Source of the DNA: Gammaproteobacteria bacterium
GTDB taxonomy: Bacteria > Pseudomonadota > Gammaproteobacteria > Xanthomonadales > Wenzhouxiangellaceae
Direction of reading: 5' to 3'
DNA: 32,977 nucleotides
Assembly: GCA_018819105.1 (NCBI GenBank)
Contig: JAHJQV010000010.1
Location: 1 to 32,977 of the forward strand
In this document: piece after piece, positions 334 to 32,499 of the stretch
Numbering within the stretch: position 1 is the stretch's first letter
Layout: each line of letters opens with the position of its first letter
The notes under the pieces: generated by a model
The model's database searches: none
What the model was told of the DNA's origin: nothing
The model's input: only the letters and a program-made list of their open reading frames with translations
Program-made: the position numbers and the translations under genes

Positions 334-1581
334 ATGCATGCATACAATCCTGATTTCACTCTCAGCGCGCCGCGCAGCGGCAAAATCGCCCTGCTGGGTT
401 ATCTGATCGAGTCCTTTGAGGCCGCGCACAAGCTGGGGCTGGATTTTGTCGCCGTGGTGCCACCTGGCTTCGAAACCGCCCTGCAGCAGGACGGCATTGA
501 CGCCATCGCCTGGGACTTCGACCGCATCAATGAACATTCCGATGAACTGCTGACCCAGTGTCTGGACAAAAATGTCCGGGTGGCGGTACCGCTGTACGAG
601 GAATGCGTCGAGTGGGCCGGTGCCCTGAATGCAAGGATCCAGGACAAGCCGCGTCTGTTCAACCGTGGTCTGCTGTTTCGCGACAAGGCCATGATGAAGC
701 GCAAGGCGCAGATGAGCGGGCTGCGCGTTGGTGTGTTTGAAGAGGTTTCACACCGTGACGAGGTCAAGCGCTTTTTCCGCCGCGTCAACGAGGCCTTGAT
801 GAACGTTGCTGGCGATGTCGAGGATCCGGTGCATCTGAAACCGACCCGCGCCGCCGGCAGTGTCGGCCATTGCATCATCCGCTCGCTGGCGGACATCGAC
901 GCACTGCCGGACGACGTCTTCCCCTGTATGGTTGAGAGCCATCTTGATGGCCAGGAATTTTCCGTCGAGGCGTTCATCCACAACGGCAAAATCTGGTTCA
1001 TGAACATCAATGAGTACGTGCATCTGGGCTATTCCCAGGTGTTGCCGCCCGGGCCTGAACTGGAGGCCGAGCGCGCCAAGATCCGTCTCGCCGTGGAGAA
1101 GCTGGTCAGCGCCTTCAACATGGACAACGGCGTCATCCACCCGGAATACTTCATAGACAGCGCAGGCGAACTGAACTTTGGCGAAGTGGCCAACCGCATT
1201 CCCGGCGGCCACATCTTCGACCTGATCCAGCGCGCCTATGGCTTTGATCCGTTTGCCGCCCAGTTGCTGTGCGCCGACCCGCAAACCAGCGATGAAGAGC
1301 TGCAGGCGTTTTTCCCGGATGAGGTGCGCGACATCCAGGGCCATGCCGGCAATGTCATGATCTATCCGCAGAAACCCAGGGTCAGCAAACTCGAGGTGCC
1401 GGATGAACTGTTGCAGGATCCACTGTATGAAAAGCACGACATGTTTGAACCTGTAACCCAGAAAGTTGCCGAACGCGTTGGCTTTGGCAACCATTACGGC
1501 AAGATCAACTTCTTCGGCGACGACGCCGAAGCCATCAAACAACGCCTGATCAGGTGGGAAAAATTTGACTTCTATCAATGA
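334..1581 (+). CDS. ATP-grasp family carboxylate-amine/thiol ligase
   Basis: The 415-residue product has the layout of the ATP-grasp superfamily, whose members activate a carboxylate as acyl phosphate with ATP and join it to an amine or thiol. The N-terminal ~110 residues form the pre-ATP-grasp alpha/beta region. The nucleotide-binding lysines are probably K118 (FRDKAMMKR) and K169 (HLKPTRAAGS). The Mg-binding end is IHPEYF (E271) and GEVANR (E284, N287, R288). The protein has no signal peptide and is probably cytosolic. It overlaps the next gene by 17 bases, so the two are translationally coupled and likely work together. No strong ribosome site precedes the ATG at 334, so the start is less certain. 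The substrate is unknown; the family covers carbamoyl-phosphate-like, dipeptide and natural-product ligases. Confidence 0.85.
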   Translation: MHAYNPDFTLSAPRSGKIALLGYLIESFEAAHKLGLDFVAVVPPGFETALQQDGIDAIAWDFDRINEHSDELLTQCLDKNVRVAVPLYEECVEWAGALNARIQDKPRLFNRGLLFRDKAMMKRKAQMSGLRVGVFEEVSHRDEVKRFFRRVNEALMNVAGDVEDPVHLKPTRAAGSVGHCIIRSLADIDALPDDVFPCMVESHLDGQEFSVEAFIHNGKIWFMNINEYVHLGYSQVLPPGPELEAERAKIRLAVEKLVSAFNMDNGVIHPEYFIDSAGELNFGEVANRIPGGHIFDLIQRAYGFDPFAAQLLCADPQTSDEELQAFFPDEVRDIQGHAGNVMIYPQKPRVSKLEVPDELLQDPLYEKHDMFEPVTQKVAERVGFGNHYGKINFFGDDAEAIKQRLIRWEKFDFYQ

Positions 1582-3580
1582 CAGCATGGTCAGCCCGACC
1601 GACGCCACGCCCCCAACCGACCCGGCATCGCTTCCGGCCCGCACCGCCAGTGACTTCACCAAGGCGCTGACTGCGCTGGAGCAGGCAGCAAGCTTCGCCA
1701 AGGCGCGCTATCAGACCGATGTCTACCAACTCGCCGGACAACTGCTGAACAGCGCCGAGGGCATGCAGGAGGTGGCACAGCATGCGCATCGCTTTGATAG
1801 CGCTGGTGTGTTTCACAATGGCCCGTGGAACCAGCCAGAAAAGCTGATCCCGCAACTTGCCGGCGGCGGGCTGCTGGGAGAAGGTGTCTACCCGACGCTG
1901 GAAACGCTCAGCGAGCTGCGCATGCTGGCGATTGCCACCGGGCGGCAACAGCACGATCAGGTCAGCGCCGAGCAGGCGATCCAGTTTCTGCGCGATGTCA
2001 TTATCCAGAATCTGCATCTGCTGTTCGCCGACAGCAGTGAGGCCTCGCGTCAGCGACCGCACATCTACACACGCGCCCAGCGGCTGCTGGCGCTGATCGC
2101 CGAGCAGATCCCGATGGCCGGGTTGCGCGATGAGGTGGTTGCCGAGATCGGCTTCATCCAGGCGCAGCGTCCGATCCTGGTGCAACGCAGCATCGAGTTG
2201 ATCCGCTATGCCGAGCGCCTGCCGGCAAGCGGTACCAGTGCGGCCAGTGACGAACTGCTGGAAACCTATCGGCTGGCGATTGACCAACCTGCCCCGCTGG
2301 CACAACGCTGTGACAGCCTCAGCGAATACCGCAATCGGCTGCGCGATGCCAGTGCGGAGCAGATCGAGGACGAATGTCACGCCTTTGCCTACACTCTGCA
2401 GGAAACCGGGCTCAGCAACCCCTGGCATGCGGTGCTGTTGCGCTTTCTCAGCCGTCGTGAACCTCGCCTGCTGGCGAATGCACTGGGCGTCAACGATTAC
2501 GGCATGGCCAGCATCAATGAAGATCAGGAGCTGGTGGTGGATCTGCTCAGGGTCGGCATCACGCCAGCCACGCACCACGCCATTTACGGCTTTGCCGGTC
2601 TGCTTGAGCGCGGCCTGCTGAACCGTCCCGCGGTGACCGCAGGGCTGCGTCGGCTGGTGGATCTGGACATCCATCCGGAGGTGGCGAAAGTCCTGTTGAG
2701 CAATTACCCCAAAGGTCATGGCCTGACCGCCAACATGGTGCTGCTGGCCGGCATGTTCAGTGTGCTGGGTCAGCCGCTGGGCATCGGCCAGGGCCACAAT
2801 CCGACCTGCCAGGCAGCGCGAGGTATCAGCCTGTGGAGCCGGCACGAACCCAATTATCTGCTGGAGCTGGTGGCCACAGCTGCGCGCAACAATCTGGTGG
2901 AAATCGAGTTTGAAGGCGTGTCGCTGAACTCGGCGGAACTGCTTGGCGGCGTCGCTGGCGGTCACATTGATGAACGTCTGGATCCGGTCTCCAGACTGCT
3001 GGTACCGCATCTGGACCGACTCTACGACGAGTTCATGCGCCGCGCGGCGCTGCGCGGTGAGGACGGGCATAAATGGGTGAACCGGGCACTGTATGGCCGC
3101 CAGATCGCCTCCGGATTCGCCGCCGCAGTGGATGCTGCCGGTATGGTCAGTGCTTATGAGGATTTCGTGCGCCTGTTCTATGCCTCACACCATCCCGATT
3201 ACAACGACGATCACGAGATGATCTACCCGAATCCGGTAGGCCTGCTGATCACCGACATTCATGGCCGCCTGCTGGGACCGCATGCGGTCTCCATCCTGCG
3301 CATCGCTGCTGATGATCTGCATGCGCTGCGGGTGTATTTCTACAACCCCAACAACGAGGGCCGGCAGGACTGGGGGCAGGACATACGCCCCACGGTCAGT
3401 GGACACGGTGAGCTTGCCGGTGAATCCTCGCTGCCATTCGAGCAGTTTGCCAGCAGACTGTATGCGTTTCATTACAGCCCCTACGAAACCGGCGATGCCT
3501 TCGCGGTGGACGCCAGAGTCATCGCGCGCATCGAAGCGCTGGCGCGCAACAGCTGGGGTGAATCCTATACCTGGCTGTAA
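1565..3580 (+). CDS. Uncharacterised protein with a papain-like Gln/Cys/His/Asn signature
   Basis: I do not recognise this 671-residue protein as a named family. The start is TTG at 1565: a ribosome site AGGTGGGA (1552-1559) sits at good spacing inside the upstream gene. The in-frame ATG at 1586 has no such site. Residues ~20-400 look helical and have no motif I know. The C-terminal part contains Q409-G-H-N-P-T-C415, which keeps the six-residue Gln-to-Cys spacing of the papain fold. It also has GPHAV (H573) and YFYNP (N594), about 20 residues apart, as in a Cys/His/Asn triad. This suggests a cysteine peptidase, amidase or acyl/peptidyl transferase of papain or transglutaminase type. There is no signal peptide. 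Coupling to the ATP-grasp gene suggests one pathway. The catalytic assignment is inference. Confidence 0.75.
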   Translation: MTSINDSMVSPTDATPPTDPASLPARTASDFTKALTALEQAASFAKARYQTDVYQLAGQLLNSAEGMQEVAQHAHRFDSAGVFHNGPWNQPEKLIPQLAGGGLLGEGVYPTLETLSELRMLAIATGRQQHDQVSAEQAIQFLRDVIIQNLHLLFADSSEASRQRPHIYTRAQRLLALIAEQIPMAGLRDEVVAEIGFIQAQRPILVQRSIELIRYAERLPASGTSAASDELLETYRLAIDQPAPLAQRCDSLSEYRNRLRDASAEQIEDECHAFAYTLQETGLSNPWHAVLLRFLSRREPRLLANALGVNDYGMASINEDQELVVDLLRVGITPATHHAIYGFAGLLERGLLNRPAVTAGLRRLVDLDIHPEVAKVLLSNYPKGHGLTANMVLLAGMFSVLGQPLGIGQGHNPTCQAARGISLWSRHEPNYLLELVATAARNNLVEIEFEGVSLNSAELLGGVAGGHIDERLDPVSRLLVPHLDRLYDEFMRRAALRGEDGHKWVNRALYGRQIASGFAAAVDAAGMVSAYEDFVRLFYASHHPDYNDDHEMIYPNPVGLLITDIHGRLLGPHAVSILRIAADDLHALRVYFYNPNNEGRQDWGQDIRPTVSGHGELAGESSLPFEQFASRLYAFHYSPYETGDAFAVDARVIARIEALARNSWGESYTWL

Positions 3581-3620: not shown

Positions 3621-3629
3621 TGTTATAAT
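3621..3629 (+). promoter_or_regulatory. Extended -10 promoter for the GNAT gene
   Basis: TGTTATAAT is a perfect extended -10 element (TGnTATAAT). It lies 30 bases ahead of the GNAT start codon, in a short AT-rich gap. No good -35 box is present, as expected for extended -10 promoters. The third gene of the cassette can therefore be transcribed independently of the first two. Confidence 0.5.
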
Positions 3630-3659: not shown

Positions 3660-4205
3660 ATGAACACAGCTGCTGAGCCCGTGAAAACAAGCGCGGACAA
3701 ACCCCAGTTGACCATCAGTCCGGCAAAACTGGAACACATGGAAGATGTGGTCGACATCATCAGTTCCTCGGCAGAATGGTACGAGGGCTTTGTCGATCCG
3801 GAAGACATGACCGAGCACCATGTGGACGCGCAATGGGCGCGCGAGAATTTCGGCAAGCGCGATTTCTATGTGGCGCGGGTGAACGACGAAATCGTTGGCA
3901 CCATCACCATGCAGGATGTCAACGAAGCTTATGTCTATCTAGGCTACGTGTATCTGCATACCGATCATGTCGGCCAGGGCTACGGCGGCATGAAGCTGGA
4001 TTGGGCGGCCGATGAAGCGCGCCGGCGTGGCAAGAAAGCCATGGTGCTGATCGCCCATCCGGAAGCCGAATGGGCCATCCGCGCCTATGAAAAATTCGGT
4101 TTTCGCCGTGTCTTTACCGAGAAAAAAGACATTCTGAACTGGTGCGATGGCTGGATGAAACCCTACTACGAGGAAGGTTTTCACTTCTACCAGTACGACC
4201 TCTGA
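3660..4205 (+). CDS. GNAT family N-acetyltransferase
   Basis: The 181-residue protein is a GCN5-related N-acyltransferase, which moves an acyl group from acyl-CoA to an amine. The CoA pyrophosphate-binding motif is HVGQGYGG, followed by the usual helix. The closing family motif AIRAYEKFGFRRV is also present. The first ~25 residues are a polar extension ahead of the fold. The ribosome site GAAGGTGA precedes the ATG. It is the third gene of the repeat-bracketed cassette, 79 bases after the papain-like gene, and has its own extended -10 promoter. The substrate cannot be read from sequence. A role in modifying the product of the ligase/papain-like pair, or in self-protection, is possible but only inferred. 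Confidence 0.9.
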   Translation: MNTAAEPVKTSADKPQLTISPAKLEHMEDVVDIISSSAEWYEGFVDPEDMTEHHVDAQWARENFGKRDFYVARVNDEIVGTITMQDVNEAYVYLGYVYLHTDHVGQGYGGMKLDWAADEARRRGKKAMVLIAHPEAEWAIRAYEKFGFRRVFTEKKDILNWCDGWMKPYYEEGFHFYQYDL

Positions 4206-16269: not shown

Positions 16270-16878
16270 ATGAACAACCCCGGCCAAACCAGGCAACACG
16301 GCGAACCCAAACTGCTGCTGGGCATCAGTGCCGGCATCGCCGCCTACAAAAGTGCCGAACTGACCCGCCTGCTGGTCACCGCCGATGTGGCCGTGCAGGT
16401 GGTGATGACGCGCTCGGCGCAGCAGTTCATTACCCCGCTCACGCTGCAGGCCCTGTCCGGGCGTGAGGTGCGCAGCGAGTTGTTCGATCCGGCTGCAGAA
16501 GCCGCCATGGGGCACATCGAACTGGCGCGCTGGGCCGATCTGATCGTCATCGCACCGGCCAGCGCCGACCTCATGGCAAGGCTGGCGCATGGCATGGCCG
16601 ATGATCTGCTCAGCACCCTGTGCCTGGCCAGCACCGCGCCGTTGTGGCTGGCACCGGCGATGAATCAGCAGATGTGGCAGCATGCGGCGACCCAGGCCAA
16701 TGTTGCCACGCTGCAGCAACGTCAGGTGCGCATGCTGGGGCCGGACAGCGGTGATCAGGCCTGTGGAGAAACCGGTCCCGGACGCATGCAGCAGCCGGCT
16801 GACATCGCCAGCGCGATACTGGCCCATTTCGGCGCAGCATCTGATGCAACCAACGGCTGGCCGGGAGAGCGGCAATGA
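16270..16878 (+). CDS. coaC: Phosphopantothenoylcysteine decarboxylase (CoaC half of a split coaBC)
   Basis: The 202-residue flavoprotein decarboxylates 4'-phosphopantothenoylcysteine to 4'-phosphopantetheine in coenzyme A synthesis. It keeps the HFCD family features: catalytic H82 in GHIELARWAD, the PAMN motif (129-132) and the flap cysteine C165 in GDQACGETGPGRM. In most bacteria this is the N-terminal half of one CoaBC protein of about 400 residues. Here it stops at 16878 and the synthetase half starts at 16875 in another frame, with an ATGA overlap. The ends GWPGERQ and [10 protein letters not shown] fall in the normal interdomain linker, so no domain is damaged. Confidence 0.92.
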   Translation: MNNPGQTRQHGEPKLLLGISAGIAAYKSAELTRLLVTADVAVQVVMTRSAQQFITPLTLQALSGREVRSELFDPAAEAAMGHIELARWADLIVIAPASADLMARLAHGMADDLLSTLCLASTAPLWLAPAMNQQMWQHAATQANVATLQQRQVRMLGPDSGDQACGETGPGRMQQPADIASAILAHFGAASDATNGWPGERQ

Positions 16879-17558
16879 CTGAGCTGCCGCTGTCCGGGCG
16901 CAAGGTGCTGGTCACCGCCGGGCCCACTTACGAAGACATTGATCCGGTGCGCTATCTGGCCAACCGCAGTTCCGGCAAGATGGGCTTTGCCATTGCTGAT
17001 GCGGCGGCGGCAGCCGGTGCCGAAGTGCAGCTGGTGGCCGGCCCGACAAACTGCCAGCAACAGCACGCCGGCATTGTCCGCAGCGATGTGCGCAGCGCAC
17101 TGCAAATGCTCGACGCGGTGCTGGAGAAGCTGCAAGGTGTGGACGTGTTCATTGCCTGCGCCGCCGTTGCCGACTACCGCCCGGCCAGGCTGGCCAGCGA
17201 AAAAATCAAGAAATCCGGCACCCGCATGCAGCTGGAGCTGGTGCGCAACCCGGACATCCTCGCCACCGTTGCCGCCCTGCCACAGCCCCCGATGACCGTG
17301 GGTTTCGCGGCCGAAACCTGTCAGGTCGAAGCGCACGCCCGGCGCAAGCTGCAACAGAAAAACATCCACCTGATTGCCGCCAACTGCGTCGCCGGTGGCC
17401 AGGGTTTCGATCGTTGCGACAACCGCCTGCTGCTGCTGTACGCCGATGGCCGGCAGCAGGATCTGGGCCTGCAATCCAAATCCGCACTGGCAGACGAACT
17501 GATCCAGGTGATCGCCACCGAACTGCGGGCCGGATTGCTCGCCACCGCCACCCCTTGA
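16875..17558 (+). CDS. coaB: Phosphopantothenate-cysteine ligase (CoaB half of a split coaBC)
   Basis: The 227-residue enzyme joins cysteine to 4'-phosphopantothenate using CTP. Conserved parts are [30 protein letters not shown] (30-41), AAVADYRP (96-103), KIKK (110-113) and GFAAET. The family asparagine and lysine that handle the acyl-cytidylate are in place. Translation is coupled to coaC by the four-base overlap. It precedes dut by 16 bases, so coaC, coaB and dut form one operon, with algC probably included. Confidence 0.93.
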
Positions 17559-27130: not shown

Positions 27131-27240
27131 GCTGAAGTCCTACAGGATTGTATGTGCTAGTGAATGGCTTTGTCCTCATAGACAGCGGAATCGGACATGC
27201 ATTATATATACCTCTGGCATATGCAGCGTACAATGCCGTC

Positions 27241-27468
27241 GTGGAAACGAAATTGTTTAAAAACAACCGGACGCAAGCGGTCAGGCTGCCGAAAGCCGTC
27301 GCCTTTCCGGACTCTGTAGACAAGGTAGACATCATAGCCATACGCCAATCCAGGCTGATCAGTCCTGCCGATGCATGCTGGGACGAGTGGTTTGAAGCTC
27401 CTCCGGCAAGTGCCGACTTCATGACTGATCGGGATCAAGACATCGAGCAGCAACGCGAAAGCCTCTGA
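27241..27468 (+). CDS. vapB: VapB-type antitoxin
   Basis: The 75-residue antitoxin has an AbrB/SpoVT-like N-terminal DNA-binding part with the VapB signature METKLFKNNRTQAVRLPKAV. Its C-terminal tail (SADFMTDRDQDIEQQRESL) would wrap the toxin. I choose the GTG at 27241 because the family begins there. Upstream codons are open to ATG 27148 but are not family-like. No ribosome site precedes the GTG; TATATA-type AT-rich sequence lies 25-35 bases upstream and may be the -10. VapC starts 12 bases after the stop. The antitoxin is expected to repress its own promoter. Confidence 0.88.
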   Translation: METKLFKNNRTQAVRLPKAVAFPDSVDKVDIIAIRQSRLISPADACWDEWFEAPPASADFMTDRDQDIEQQRESL

Positions 27469-27480
27469 ATCGGACTCTGC

Positions 27481-27879
27481 ATGCTCAAATACCTGCTCGA
27501 TACCAACATCGCCATCTACACCATCAAGCACAAACCCGTCAGCGTGCACGCGCAGTTCAGGCGCAACCATGGTCGCATGGCGATATCAACCATTACCGTG
27601 ATGGAGCTGGTCTATGGCGCCGAGCACTCCACCCATGTAGAGCGCAATCTTGCAGTCATCGAAGGGTTCACCGCCAGACTGGTGGTGCTCGATTATGATC
27701 ACGCTGCGGCCTGGCACAGTGGGCAGATCAGGGCCGAGCTGCGCCGCAACGGCCAGCCCAAAGGGCCGTACGATCAGATGCTGGCCGGGCACGCGCGGTC
27801 ACGTGGTCTGACGCTGGTGACCAACAACACGGGAGAGTTTCAGCACGTGCCGGGACTGCTGCTGGAGAACTGGGTCTGA
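27481..27879 (+). CDS. vapC: VapC-type PIN-domain ribonuclease toxin
   Basis: The 132-residue PIN-domain endoribonuclease probably cleaves initiator tRNA, as its enteric VapC relatives do. The first acidic residue is in YLLDTN (D7). The second is in the MELVYGAE helix, and the third is the Asp of GPYDQMLAGHARSRG. The closing LVTNNTGEFQHVPGLLLENW is a family hallmark. No truncation is seen, so the toxin should be active. It is coupled with vapB in a two-gene operon. Confidence 0.93.
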   Translation: MLKYLLDTNIAIYTIKHKPVSVHAQFRRNHGRMAISTITVMELVYGAEHSTHVERNLAVIEGFTARLVVLDYDHAAAWHSGQIRAELRRNGQPKGPYDQMLAGHARSRGLTLVTNNTGEFQHVPGLLLENWV

Positions 27880-31363: not shown

Positions 31364-31848
31364 GGGTTGGATAGCGTTTTTGGAGTTTGCCCAGTCTCAC
31401 TGCTTACTTGCCTGACTGGGGTTGGACTGGCTTGGTCGGGGTTTACATATTCCAATGTCTAGCGGCTATAGTCTAAGTTAGGCGCGCCTGGAGTTTGGGT
31501 AGTGCAGCCAGACTGGCCGGTACGGGGTGCTATAAGCGTGGTCGATCTCAGAATTTTTTGAGACCACGATTGCCAGGCGGTGTATAGCTTTCACCATTCG
31601 GGTCGTGGGTGTCTTGAGCTACCCTCCTATGCATCGACCTCATCCATGTGTCGAGCCAGGTGATATCTATTCACGTTACACGACCTGACCCCATGGTCTT
31701 TACACATGGTCTTTACACGACCTGACCCCATGTTCTCATGTCAAGACTCTATTGGGGTTTTATTATTAATCCTTTTCAGGTATATTTGCAAGACCTGCCC
31801 AAAATGGAGGATTACGCTTTGGCAGCATCCATTATCCGGCTTCTGCCG
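31364..31848. other. Repeat-rich intergenic stretch before the HTH-brnTA operon
   Basis: This stretch contains no supported gene. The frame of the HTH gene is open back to 31738, but those residues do not belong to the family. The notable content is the nested repeat at 31676-31732. The rest is less GC-rich than the surrounding genes and contains phrases seen near old insertion events, but I cannot assign it. Confidence 0.4.
31676..31732. repeat. Nested direct repeats: 20-bp pair enclosing a 13-bp tandem pair
   Basis: TTACACGACCTGACCCCATG occurs perfectly at 31676-31695 and 31713-31732. Between and partly overlapping them, ATGGTCTTTACAC occurs twice in tandem (31693-31705 and 31706-31718). 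The phrase CCTGACCCC is common in dispersed gammaproteobacterial intergenic repeats. The position, about 120-170 bases before the HTH gene, also suits operators for that gene. Confidence 0.75.
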
Positions 31849-32190
31849 ATGAGCTTTCCGGAGCGACTGACCCAAACCCGCAAATCGCAAGGGCTGATCC
31901 AGCAAAGCCTGGCCGATGCATCTGGCTTGCATATCAATCAGATCCGACGCTACGAGGCAGGGACAGCACAACCAACCCTGGAAGGGCTGATCAAACTGGC
32001 CAAGGCGCTGCATGTCGGCCTCGATGAACTGGTGTTCGATCCCGACGAGCGCGGCCCGACCCAACCACGGCTACGGCTGCTGTTCGAGGCGATTGAGCGG
32101 CTCGACCAGAAGGAACAAGCCGTGATCCAGGAACTGCTCGAGGGCATGATCGTCAAGTATGAAGCCCGGCGCTGGACGGCGACCGGTTAA
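31849..32190 (+). CDS. XRE-family helix-turn-helix regulator
   Basis: The 113-residue protein opens MSFPERLTQTRKSQGLIQQS and has a Cro/C1-type HTH (residues 5-60), with recognition helix near HINQIRRYEAGTAQPT. A C-terminal helical part (FEAIERLDQKEQAVIQELLEGMIVKYEARRW) is probably for dimerisation. I use ATG 31849, where the family begins. The stop codon is directly followed by the brnT ATG (TAAATG), so this is the first gene of a three-gene operon and probably its repressor, with the repeats upstream as possible operators. Confidence 0.88.
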   Translation: MSFPERLTQTRKSQGLIQQSLADASGLHINQIRRYEAGTAQPTLEGLIKLAKALHVGLDELVFDPDERGPTQPRLRLLFEAIERLDQKEQAVIQELLEGMIVKYEARRWTATG

Positions 32191-32499
32191 ATGGCCGGGG
32201 AATTCCACTATCATTTCGAGTGGGACCCGGCCAAGGCGGCCACCAACCGCCGTAAGCACGGCGTCGGATTCGAGCTGGCCGCTACTGTGTTCAGAGACTC
32301 GCTGGCGCTTTCGCGCTTCAACGAAGACCATAGCGAAACTGAAGAACGCTGGGTCACATTGGGACAGGCTGACAACGGCAATCTACTGGTGGTGGTCCAC
32401 ACCTTCCAGGAACTGAACGAGCACAACGCCGTCGTGCGGATTATTTCGGCGCGTGCGGCAACTAAACACGAGCAACGCGACTACGAGAGCAAGCCATGA
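32191..32499 (+). CDS. brnT: BrnT-type ribonuclease toxin
   Basis: The 102-residue protein has the BrnT pattern FEWDPAKAATNRRKHGVGFELAATVF in outline, the conserved central strand region (ERWVTLGQADNGNLLVVVHT) and RIISARAATKHEQRDYE near the end, which holds the catalytic-type Arg and the usual close. BrnT is a small RelE-like RNase that halts translation. It overlaps brnA by four bases (ATGA), in the standard toxin-first order. Confidence 0.93.
   Translation: MAGEFHYHFEWDPAKAATNRRKHGVGFELAATVFRDSLALSRFNEDHSETEERWVTLGQADNGNLLVVVHTFQELNEHNAVVRIISARAATKHEQRDYESKP

Follow-up and report, generated by a model that had tools for sequence, protein, structure and literature searches.

Two described osmolyte systems are among the closest known counterparts of the locus analyzed here, which lies in a 32,977-nucleotide stretch of a Gammaproteobacteria bacterium genome (contig JAHJQV010000010.1, family Wenzhouxiangellaceae; hereafter, the window) and comprises a gene for an ATP-grasp ligase followed by one for a 671-residue protein that we denote PapL, a label coined in this analysis. 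The N-acetylglutaminylglutamine amide (NAGGN) operon (asnO, ngg and an aminopeptidase gene), to which an osmolyte role is assigned (PMC8070244), is, like the locus in the window, a small operon combining an amide bond, N-acetylation and a peptidase-type third enzyme. The window differs in possessing separate GNAT and ATP-grasp genes and a papain fold in place of an asparagine-synthase-like enzyme, and no NAGGN (Ngg/AsnO-type) NCBIfam model was found among the E ≤ 1 matches of the three window proteins (the ligase, PapL and an adjacent GNAT acetyltransferase). The N-delta-acetylornithine pathway of Halobacillus resembles the locus in its ornithine supply and acetyltransferase; as proposed in PMC4187189, however, it has no need of a ligase or of a papain-fold enzyme. 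Halobacillus itself carries the PapL-ligase pair (L032-L034, L036, L040; L and G handles denote loci and genomes, respectively), with no ornithine gene within 8 kb at these loci.

Here, we describe PapL as a large family that lacks a Pfam, NCBIfam or PADLOC model and combines a full papain-type catalytic set with an apparent biosynthetic ligase unit. We tentatively propose that PapL represents a new family of thiol enzymes with a papain fold, acting in series with the dedicated ATP-grasp ligase on an N-acetylated diamino acid, with a compatible solute or related metabolite as the outcome. The fold, the invariant Gln/Cys/His/Asn set, the ligase pairing and the repeated linkage to ornithine, GNAT, hydrolase and ectoine synthase (EctC) genes were computed, and the substrate is what we infer. 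Although fold and ligase each belong to a known class, the PapL family, its pairing and its context are undescribed in our literature search, which was confined to open PubMed Central (PMC) papers and in which no description of the PapL and ATP-grasp pair was recognized.

Putative catalytic residues and predicted fold of PapL

The PapL open reading frame (ORF) at 1565-3580 is a real, conserved gene, the 5' end of which overlaps the 3' end of the ATP-grasp gene by 17 nt. In the nearest relative (L017), the earliest possible PapL start is likewise a TTG codon within the end of the ATP-grasp gene. The pair and the parts of PapL are arranged in the window as follows:

1565-3580, + strand: PapL ORF, TTG start, 671 aa
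334-1581, + strand: ATP-grasp ligase, the partner gene, 415 aa (PF13535 ATP-grasp_4, 32.7 bits against a cut-off of 27)
1552-1557, + strand: AGGTGG, likely ribosome-binding site 7 nt 5' of the PapL TTG, from sequence reading
1628-2713, + strand: all-helical N-terminal part of PapL, approximately residues 22-383; DSSP of the model shows helices only
2714-3577, + strand: predicted papain-fold catalytic half of PapL, residues 384-671, from the model and fold search
2789-2791, + strand: Q409, putative oxyanion-hole glutamine, from conservation (94/94 and 55/55)
2807-2809, + strand: C415, putative nucleophile, first residue of helix 415-427 and sole invariant cysteine
3281-3283, + strand: H573, putative general base in strand 569-582, from conservation and the model
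3344-3346, + strand: N594, putative third member of the catalytic set, directly after strand 588-593, from conservation and the model

A first-pass annotation of the window, made from the DNA letters by a model, had claimed that Q409 and C415 keep the six-residue spacing of the papain oxyanion glutamine and nucleophile, and that H573 and N594 follow in papain-like order. All four residues were found at the right positions in the ORF and in that order, with 158 residues from C to H and 21 from H to N, and alignments of homologues uphold the claim. As read from the sequence, the order Gln, Cys, His, Asn/Asp with the glutamine six residues before the cysteine is that of clan CA. The intervals are close to those of the calpain core (C2) and staphopain (C47), the C-to-H and H-to-N distances being 157 and 24 in calpain-1 and the H-to-N distance 21 in staphopain.

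In a genome scan, at least 584 of at least 595 pattern-matching stretches encode a PapL relative, and 80 loci were kept. The four residues are present in all 94 sequences compared, that is, the 93 PapL ORFs of these loci, including 13 divergent second copies with 30-39% identity, and the window. Because one of the two search patterns used in the locus scan contained Q409 and C415 and thus biased the set for them, a recount was made on homologues from protein or profile searches (62 loci yielding 54 distinct sequences, one of which belongs to the genome of the window itself). Adding the window sequence gives 55 rows, and all four residues are kept in 55 of 55. They are equally invariant in alignment A1, 16 rows collected by genome search, the 15 homologues in which are 37-78% identical to the window protein. 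This conservation exceeds what a coincidence would give: in alignment A2 (53 rows chosen for diversity out of the 93 ORFs and the window), C415 is the sole invariant one among the three cysteines of the window PapL, and 4 of its 32 glutamines, 3 of 25 histidines and 3 of 25 asparagines are invariant, with Q409, H573 and N594 among these. The 45 invariant columns of A2 are distributed unevenly, with 34 at or after residue 384 and 11 before it.

Family-name searches with PapL covered Pfam, NCBIfam, PADLOC and PDB sequences (phmmer and profile), with PHROGs outside their scope. Pfam yielded no family at E ≤ 1, the calpain family C2 and phytochelatin synthase models included. NCBIfam gave a single match, GRASP_targ_2, which stays below threshold (12.6 bits where 32 are required, E 0.1), and none of the three window proteins has a PADLOC match at E ≤ 0.01. 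Whole PapL matched no PDB sequence at E ≤ 10, and neither did a profile built from 53 rows of its catalytic half. For these four libraries, the earlier description of the 671-residue protein as unrecognized is therefore accurate.

The AlphaFold2 model of whole PapL has a predicted local distance difference test score (pLDDT) of 90.6 and a predicted template modeling score (pTM) of 0.86; a separate model of residues 384-671 reaches 91.1 and 0.88. In the DSSP assignment of the whole model, helix 415-427 opens at C415, strand 569-582 contains H573, and N594 comes after strand 588-593. The papain topology has the same arrangement, with the cysteine at the helix N-terminus, the histidine in a strand and the asparagine past the next strand; the predicted placement of Cys at the N-terminus of the central helix, with His and Asn on the next sheet, is that of clan CA. 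It bears indirectly on the condition set by the first-pass annotation, that the residues should not lie far apart in a predicted structure. Foldseek ranks calpain-3 (6bjd_A) first for the catalytic half (probability 0.97, E 2.4e-3, template modeling score (TM) 0.39), and unrelated folds (TCL1A, BAH domain) start at rank 43 with E ≥ 0.36. A second structure comparison of the same half also places calpain-3 first (Z 7.7, root-mean-square deviation (rmsd) 4.6, 199 residues aligned). We take all 50 matches listed in that comparison to be papain-fold enzymes (calpains, staphopains, phytochelatin synthase, cathepsins and others), and the unrelated folds of the Foldseek list are absent from these 50. 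For whole PapL, Foldseek returned mainly helical-repeat matches (best E 0.46), and the second comparison already had calpains on top (Z 7.3). Conservation, predicted topology and fold search together lend good support to the papain-like reading of PapL.

The likeness to calpain and staphopain spans residues 384-637 of the predicted fold and the order of Gln, Cys, His and Asn, whereas PapL lacks a sequence match to a peptidase family, carries about 360 helical residues in front and is paired with a ligase. Phytochelatin synthase (6tjl_A; Z 6.2, rmsd 4.7, 155 aligned), a papain-fold transpeptidase, belongs to the same predicted fold class, and its acyl transfer between small peptides is, by analogy, the mechanism that PapL might employ. 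PapL differs from it in having no match to its Pfam family and no glutathione-related gene among the annotated neighbors.

Pairing with an ATP-grasp ligase

The first-pass annotation had coupled PapL to the ATP-grasp ligase on the strength of one locus, and the coupling extends well beyond it. A single order within the window's class was sampled with 244 genomes, of which 34 contain PapL, the same 34 contain the ATP-grasp partner, and the remaining 210 contain neither (Fisher 2e-42, relatedness ignored). Among 19 chosen genomes, partly overlapping the 244, the ligase is present in 15 of 15 with PapL and in 0 of 4 without it. Within the 80 loci, an ATP-grasp match occurs in 74, counting L081, where the ligase lies downstream of PapL on the other strand; in two of the loci with no ligase match (L080, L082), the sequence ends at the PapL start.

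The closest PDB match of the partner is an L-amino acid ligase (4wd3_A; residues 111-307, E 4.1e-5). The match to these ligases is remote, and a genome with the partner carries PapL every time in the order tested (34/34). The ATP-grasp relative in G636 scores 25.6 bits with PF13535, just under the cut-off of 27.

Two observations concern gene copies. A second, divergent PapL copy with all four residues lies near the first in 13 of the 80 loci (L039, L041, L045, L046, L049, L051, L055, L056, L059, L060, L062, L066, L075), and no second ligase match was found in the ORF lists of these loci. In G691, an ATP-grasp copy (C16:39055-40769, - strand) stands beside a short, weak PapL-like match on the + strand (E 3.4e-4, one stop codon), and an intact PapL is encoded on a different contig.

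Neighboring genes and the ectoine synthase link

Downstream of PapL, the window contains two further features:

3660-4205, + strand: GNAT acetyltransferase, 181 aa (PF00583, 57 bits), starting 79 bp past PapL
3624-3629, + strand: TATAAT hexamer in the gap between PapL and the GNAT gene, spotted by eye, possibly the GNAT gene's own promoter

The match of this GNAT to PDB sequences is weak (two chains, best E 5.9e-5). Gene neighborhoods were compared over 100 loci, consisting of the 80 loci (the best 80 of those found) and 20 others, an uneven sample in which some contigs end near the gene. The ornithine-synthesis genes ArgJ, ArgB or ArgC lie within 8 kb in 13 of the 100 loci. Approximately seven lineages are represented: Neobacillus/Ectobacillus, an uncultured proteobacterium, Polyangia, a deltaproteobacterium, an unclassified bacterium in which ArgC alone is present, Marinoscillum together with a near-identical metagenome-assembled genome, and Cyclobacterium. 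The Cyclobacterium genes (L086, L087, L090, L092) are on the opposite strand and count as one lineage within the 13, and in eight of the 13 loci ArgJ is on the same strand within 5.3 kb. Gene orders, for which a codon-usage version of ORF calling was used, include ArgJ>GNAT>ATP-grasp>PapL in L042, L048 and L057. The last of these reads in full ArgC, ArgB, ArgD, ArgJ, GNAT, ATP-grasp, PapL, M20, and the Ectobacillus locus L056 reads ATP-grasp, PapL, ArgC, ArgJ, ArgB, ArgD, second PapL. ArgD-like matches in L022-L024 and L069 (34-35% identity, more than 6 kb away) were excluded from the ornithine linkage.

Other enzymes recur beside the pair. A GNAT of the window's type adjoins it in 6 of the 80 loci, and a different GNAT is located upstream on the opposite strand in 24 of 80. 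An alanine-racemase-like gene lies directly 3' of PapL in 16 of 80, mostly in Bacteroidota and Balneolota; it exceeds the cut-off for ordinary alanine racemase, and its closest PDB matches are alanine racemases. The counts of 24 and 16 come from a simple ORF caller that misplaces genes in GC-rich loci, with one member of each cluster checked in Pfam. A gene for an HDAC-fold hydrolase is directly 3' of PapL in 8 of the 14 PapL-carrying g6 genomes and encodes a protein 47% identical to that of G636, where the HDAC-fold gene stands beside the ATP-grasp gene. The M20 enzyme after PapL in L057 scores 216.9 bits (cut-off 153.75) with the model of the general amidohydrolase subfamily and is assigned to it, its next match being DoeB2, an N-acetyl-diaminobutanoate deacetylase (198 bits, far under the cut-off of 550). 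Apart from the arg, GNAT, racemase-like, HDAC-fold or M20 and EctC genes, no gene recurs beside the pair across lineages among ORFs of at least 80 aa.

Single loci offer further neighbors. L149:6019-7011 (- strand, 331 aa), adjoining PapL, and L083:11095-11910 (+ strand, 272 aa), adjoining the racemase-like gene, match nothing in Pfam or NCBIfam at E ≤ 1e-5. A mechanosensitive-channel gene (L091:11164-12084) and a glutamine cyclotransferase gene (L085:5775-6653) each stand beside the unit in one locus.

Four genomes, each from a different family, encode EctC close to PapL or to the ligase. In G490, EctC follows the PapL match by about 60 bp; in G542, it lies 5' of the ATP-grasp gene on the same strand; and in G551, it is found on the opposite strand, 1.8 kb away from a second ATP-grasp copy. 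G636 shows the order EctC>ATP-grasp>GNAT>HDAC-fold, with EctC on the strand of the ATP-grasp gene and PapL elsewhere. The EctC proteins of G490, G542 and G636 are 42-58% identical and therefore do not reflect one recent transfer. A rough Poisson estimate, for which the distance considered, the gene copy numbers and the genome size were assumed, puts the chance of four such genomes at 3e-5. In the order of 244 genomes, EctC is present in 34 of 34 genomes with PapL and 91 of 210 without it (Fisher 1.2e-11), and among relatives, the corresponding counts are 12 of 16 and 5 of 85 (Fisher 7.6e-9), relatedness being ignored in both tests. In G521, EctC (C19:18966-19346) is about 18 kb from PapL on the same contig and is 77% identical to the G542 copy adjoining the ligase.

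Proposed pathway and rival explanations

The linked genes suggest an intracellular pathway on N-acetylated diamino acids, and we tentatively read PapL as an acyl-transfer family coupled to an amino-acid ligase, with an osmolyte-like product. The substrate would be an N-acetylated diamino acid, either ornithine or, as in ectoine, diaminobutyrate, and in the window the GNAT would place the acetyl group on its side-chain amine. The ATP-grasp enzyme would use ATP to activate a carboxylate and form an amide (dipeptide-like) bond. C415 of PapL could then attack the amide or acyl group of the ligase product, forming a thioester, with H573/N594 as the base and Q409 as the oxyanion hole, and the acceptor of the acyl group might be either a second amine, by transpeptidation or transamidation, or water. 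In some lineages, HDAC-fold or M20 enzymes may remove the acetyl group, and the pathway would end in a compatible solute that is small and charge-masked, or in a related metabolite. Under this proposal, many salt-adapted bacteria would possess a testable new amino-acid-derived osmolyte pathway, and the linked GNATs would be candidates for the Halobacillus N-delta-acetyltransferase, which, according to PMC4187189, was still unidentified in 2013.

It is possible, if doubtful, that the pair defines an undescribed and widespread compatible-solute route, in which the ATP-grasp ligase and a papain-fold transpeptidase build an acyl-masked ornithine or diaminobutyrate peptide in salt-adapted Bacillaceae, Bacteroidota, Balneolota, Gemmatimonadota, Nitrospirota and Gammaproteobacteria, replacing or supplementing ectoine. 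The carrier genera named here come from salt habitats.

Several explanations compete with acyl transfer toward an osmolyte. PapL could be a hydrolase that recycles the dipeptide-like solute of the ligase when salt drops, a role that we consider rather unlikely, in the manner of the NAGGN-operon aminopeptidase; in Pseudomonas, according to PMC8070244, that operon joins an asparagine-synthase-type enzyme and a GNAT enzyme to the aminopeptidase, and the closest folds of PapL are mainly peptidases. However, a purely degradative step should disappear more readily in evolution than the identical presence of PapL and ligase (34/244) indicates, and some lineages already possess HDAC-fold and M20 hydrolases; transfer is favored over hydrolysis because of this perfect pairing in the sampled order and these separate hydrolases. 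Production or alteration of a peptide antibiotic, siderophore-like or signaling metabolite, with ornithine as a building block and the EctC link reflecting habitat, appears less plausible still. GNAT and papain-fold proteins do occur with ornithine-generating enzymes in predicted non-ribosomal peptide operons (PMC2922099), and some neighbors are of transport type (an MFS gene at L153, ABC ATPase genes at L156 and at L159). Nevertheless, the family is widespread, and no non-ribosomal peptide synthetase or carrier-protein gene was detected among the 30 plus two neighbor genes checked in Pfam, precursor peptides and ORFs below 70-80 aa not having been searched.

The first-pass annotation had suggested bond making and bond cutting on a peptide or amine, which is supported in part: a route that makes and remodels bonds on an amine or amino acid fits the neighbors (ornithine enzymes, GNATs, HDAC-fold, M20, racemase-like and EctC genes), whereas PapL may transfer acyl groups instead of cutting bonds. 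Its alternative of protein modification finds no support among the neighbor genes examined. Modification of a protein, or maturation of a ribosomally synthesized and post-translationally modified peptide, with the ligase adding groups and PapL removing or transferring them, seems very unlikely: its sole trace, the sub-threshold GRASP_targ_2 match in PapL, falls within the conserved enzyme domain, and the recurrent neighbors (ORFs of at least 80 aa) include no additional gene. An anti-phage defense or mobile conflict system is the most improbable of these explanations. Cysteine-protease folds are known in such systems, but the window proteins have no PADLOC match, the viral contigs scanned gave 7 pattern matches and 0 PapL relatives, and a single plasmid record of 72,556, from Halomonas and without annotation, carries a relative.

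A number of observations weigh against the proposed diamino acid pathway. The fold scores are middling (Z 7-8) or low (TM 0.39), with no single strong match, and may reflect a common arrangement only. Four loci (L070, L072, L076, L094) have no ligase, and PapL can outnumber it, as in G169 with five PapL and two ligase copies. Arg genes are near in only a minority of loci, the bulk of all loci consisting of the two genes alone, and ArgJ was not found in the window's own genome. The nearby GNATs belong to more than one family, that of G636 having no significant match to the window GNAT, and the Bacillaceae GNAT scores 16.6 bits against EctA (cut-off 120.6). The racemase-like gene need not act on ornithine because it scores as an alanine racemase. 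EctC is common without PapL (91/210), so that much of the association may reflect saline habitat; it is present in 5 of 26 PapL-carrying genomes picked from other loci, two of the five being Gammaproteobacteria, and absent from both genomes of the window's genus (G000 and G001, the window's own included). PapL thus also occurs without ectoine synthase, and ectoine is not a required substrate.

Two further readings were dropped. One is confined to ectoine, and it fails because G000, G001 and 21 of the 26 other genomes lack EctC. The other is a carrier route of the LysW type, combining ArgB/C/D homologues and an ATP-grasp enzyme; it was set aside because eight loci contain ArgJ, small carrier genes not having been searched.

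Elsewhere in the window, three features were noted by eye. Overlapping ORFs at 16270-16878 and 16875-17558 (+ strand) resemble the CoaC-like and CoaB-like halves of Dfp/CoaBC, usually a single fused protein, and may represent a split gene or a frameshift. A VapBC-like pair appears at 27148-27468 and 27481-27879 (+ strand), and a helix-turn-helix gene followed by a BrnT-like ORF at 31738-32499 (+ strand).

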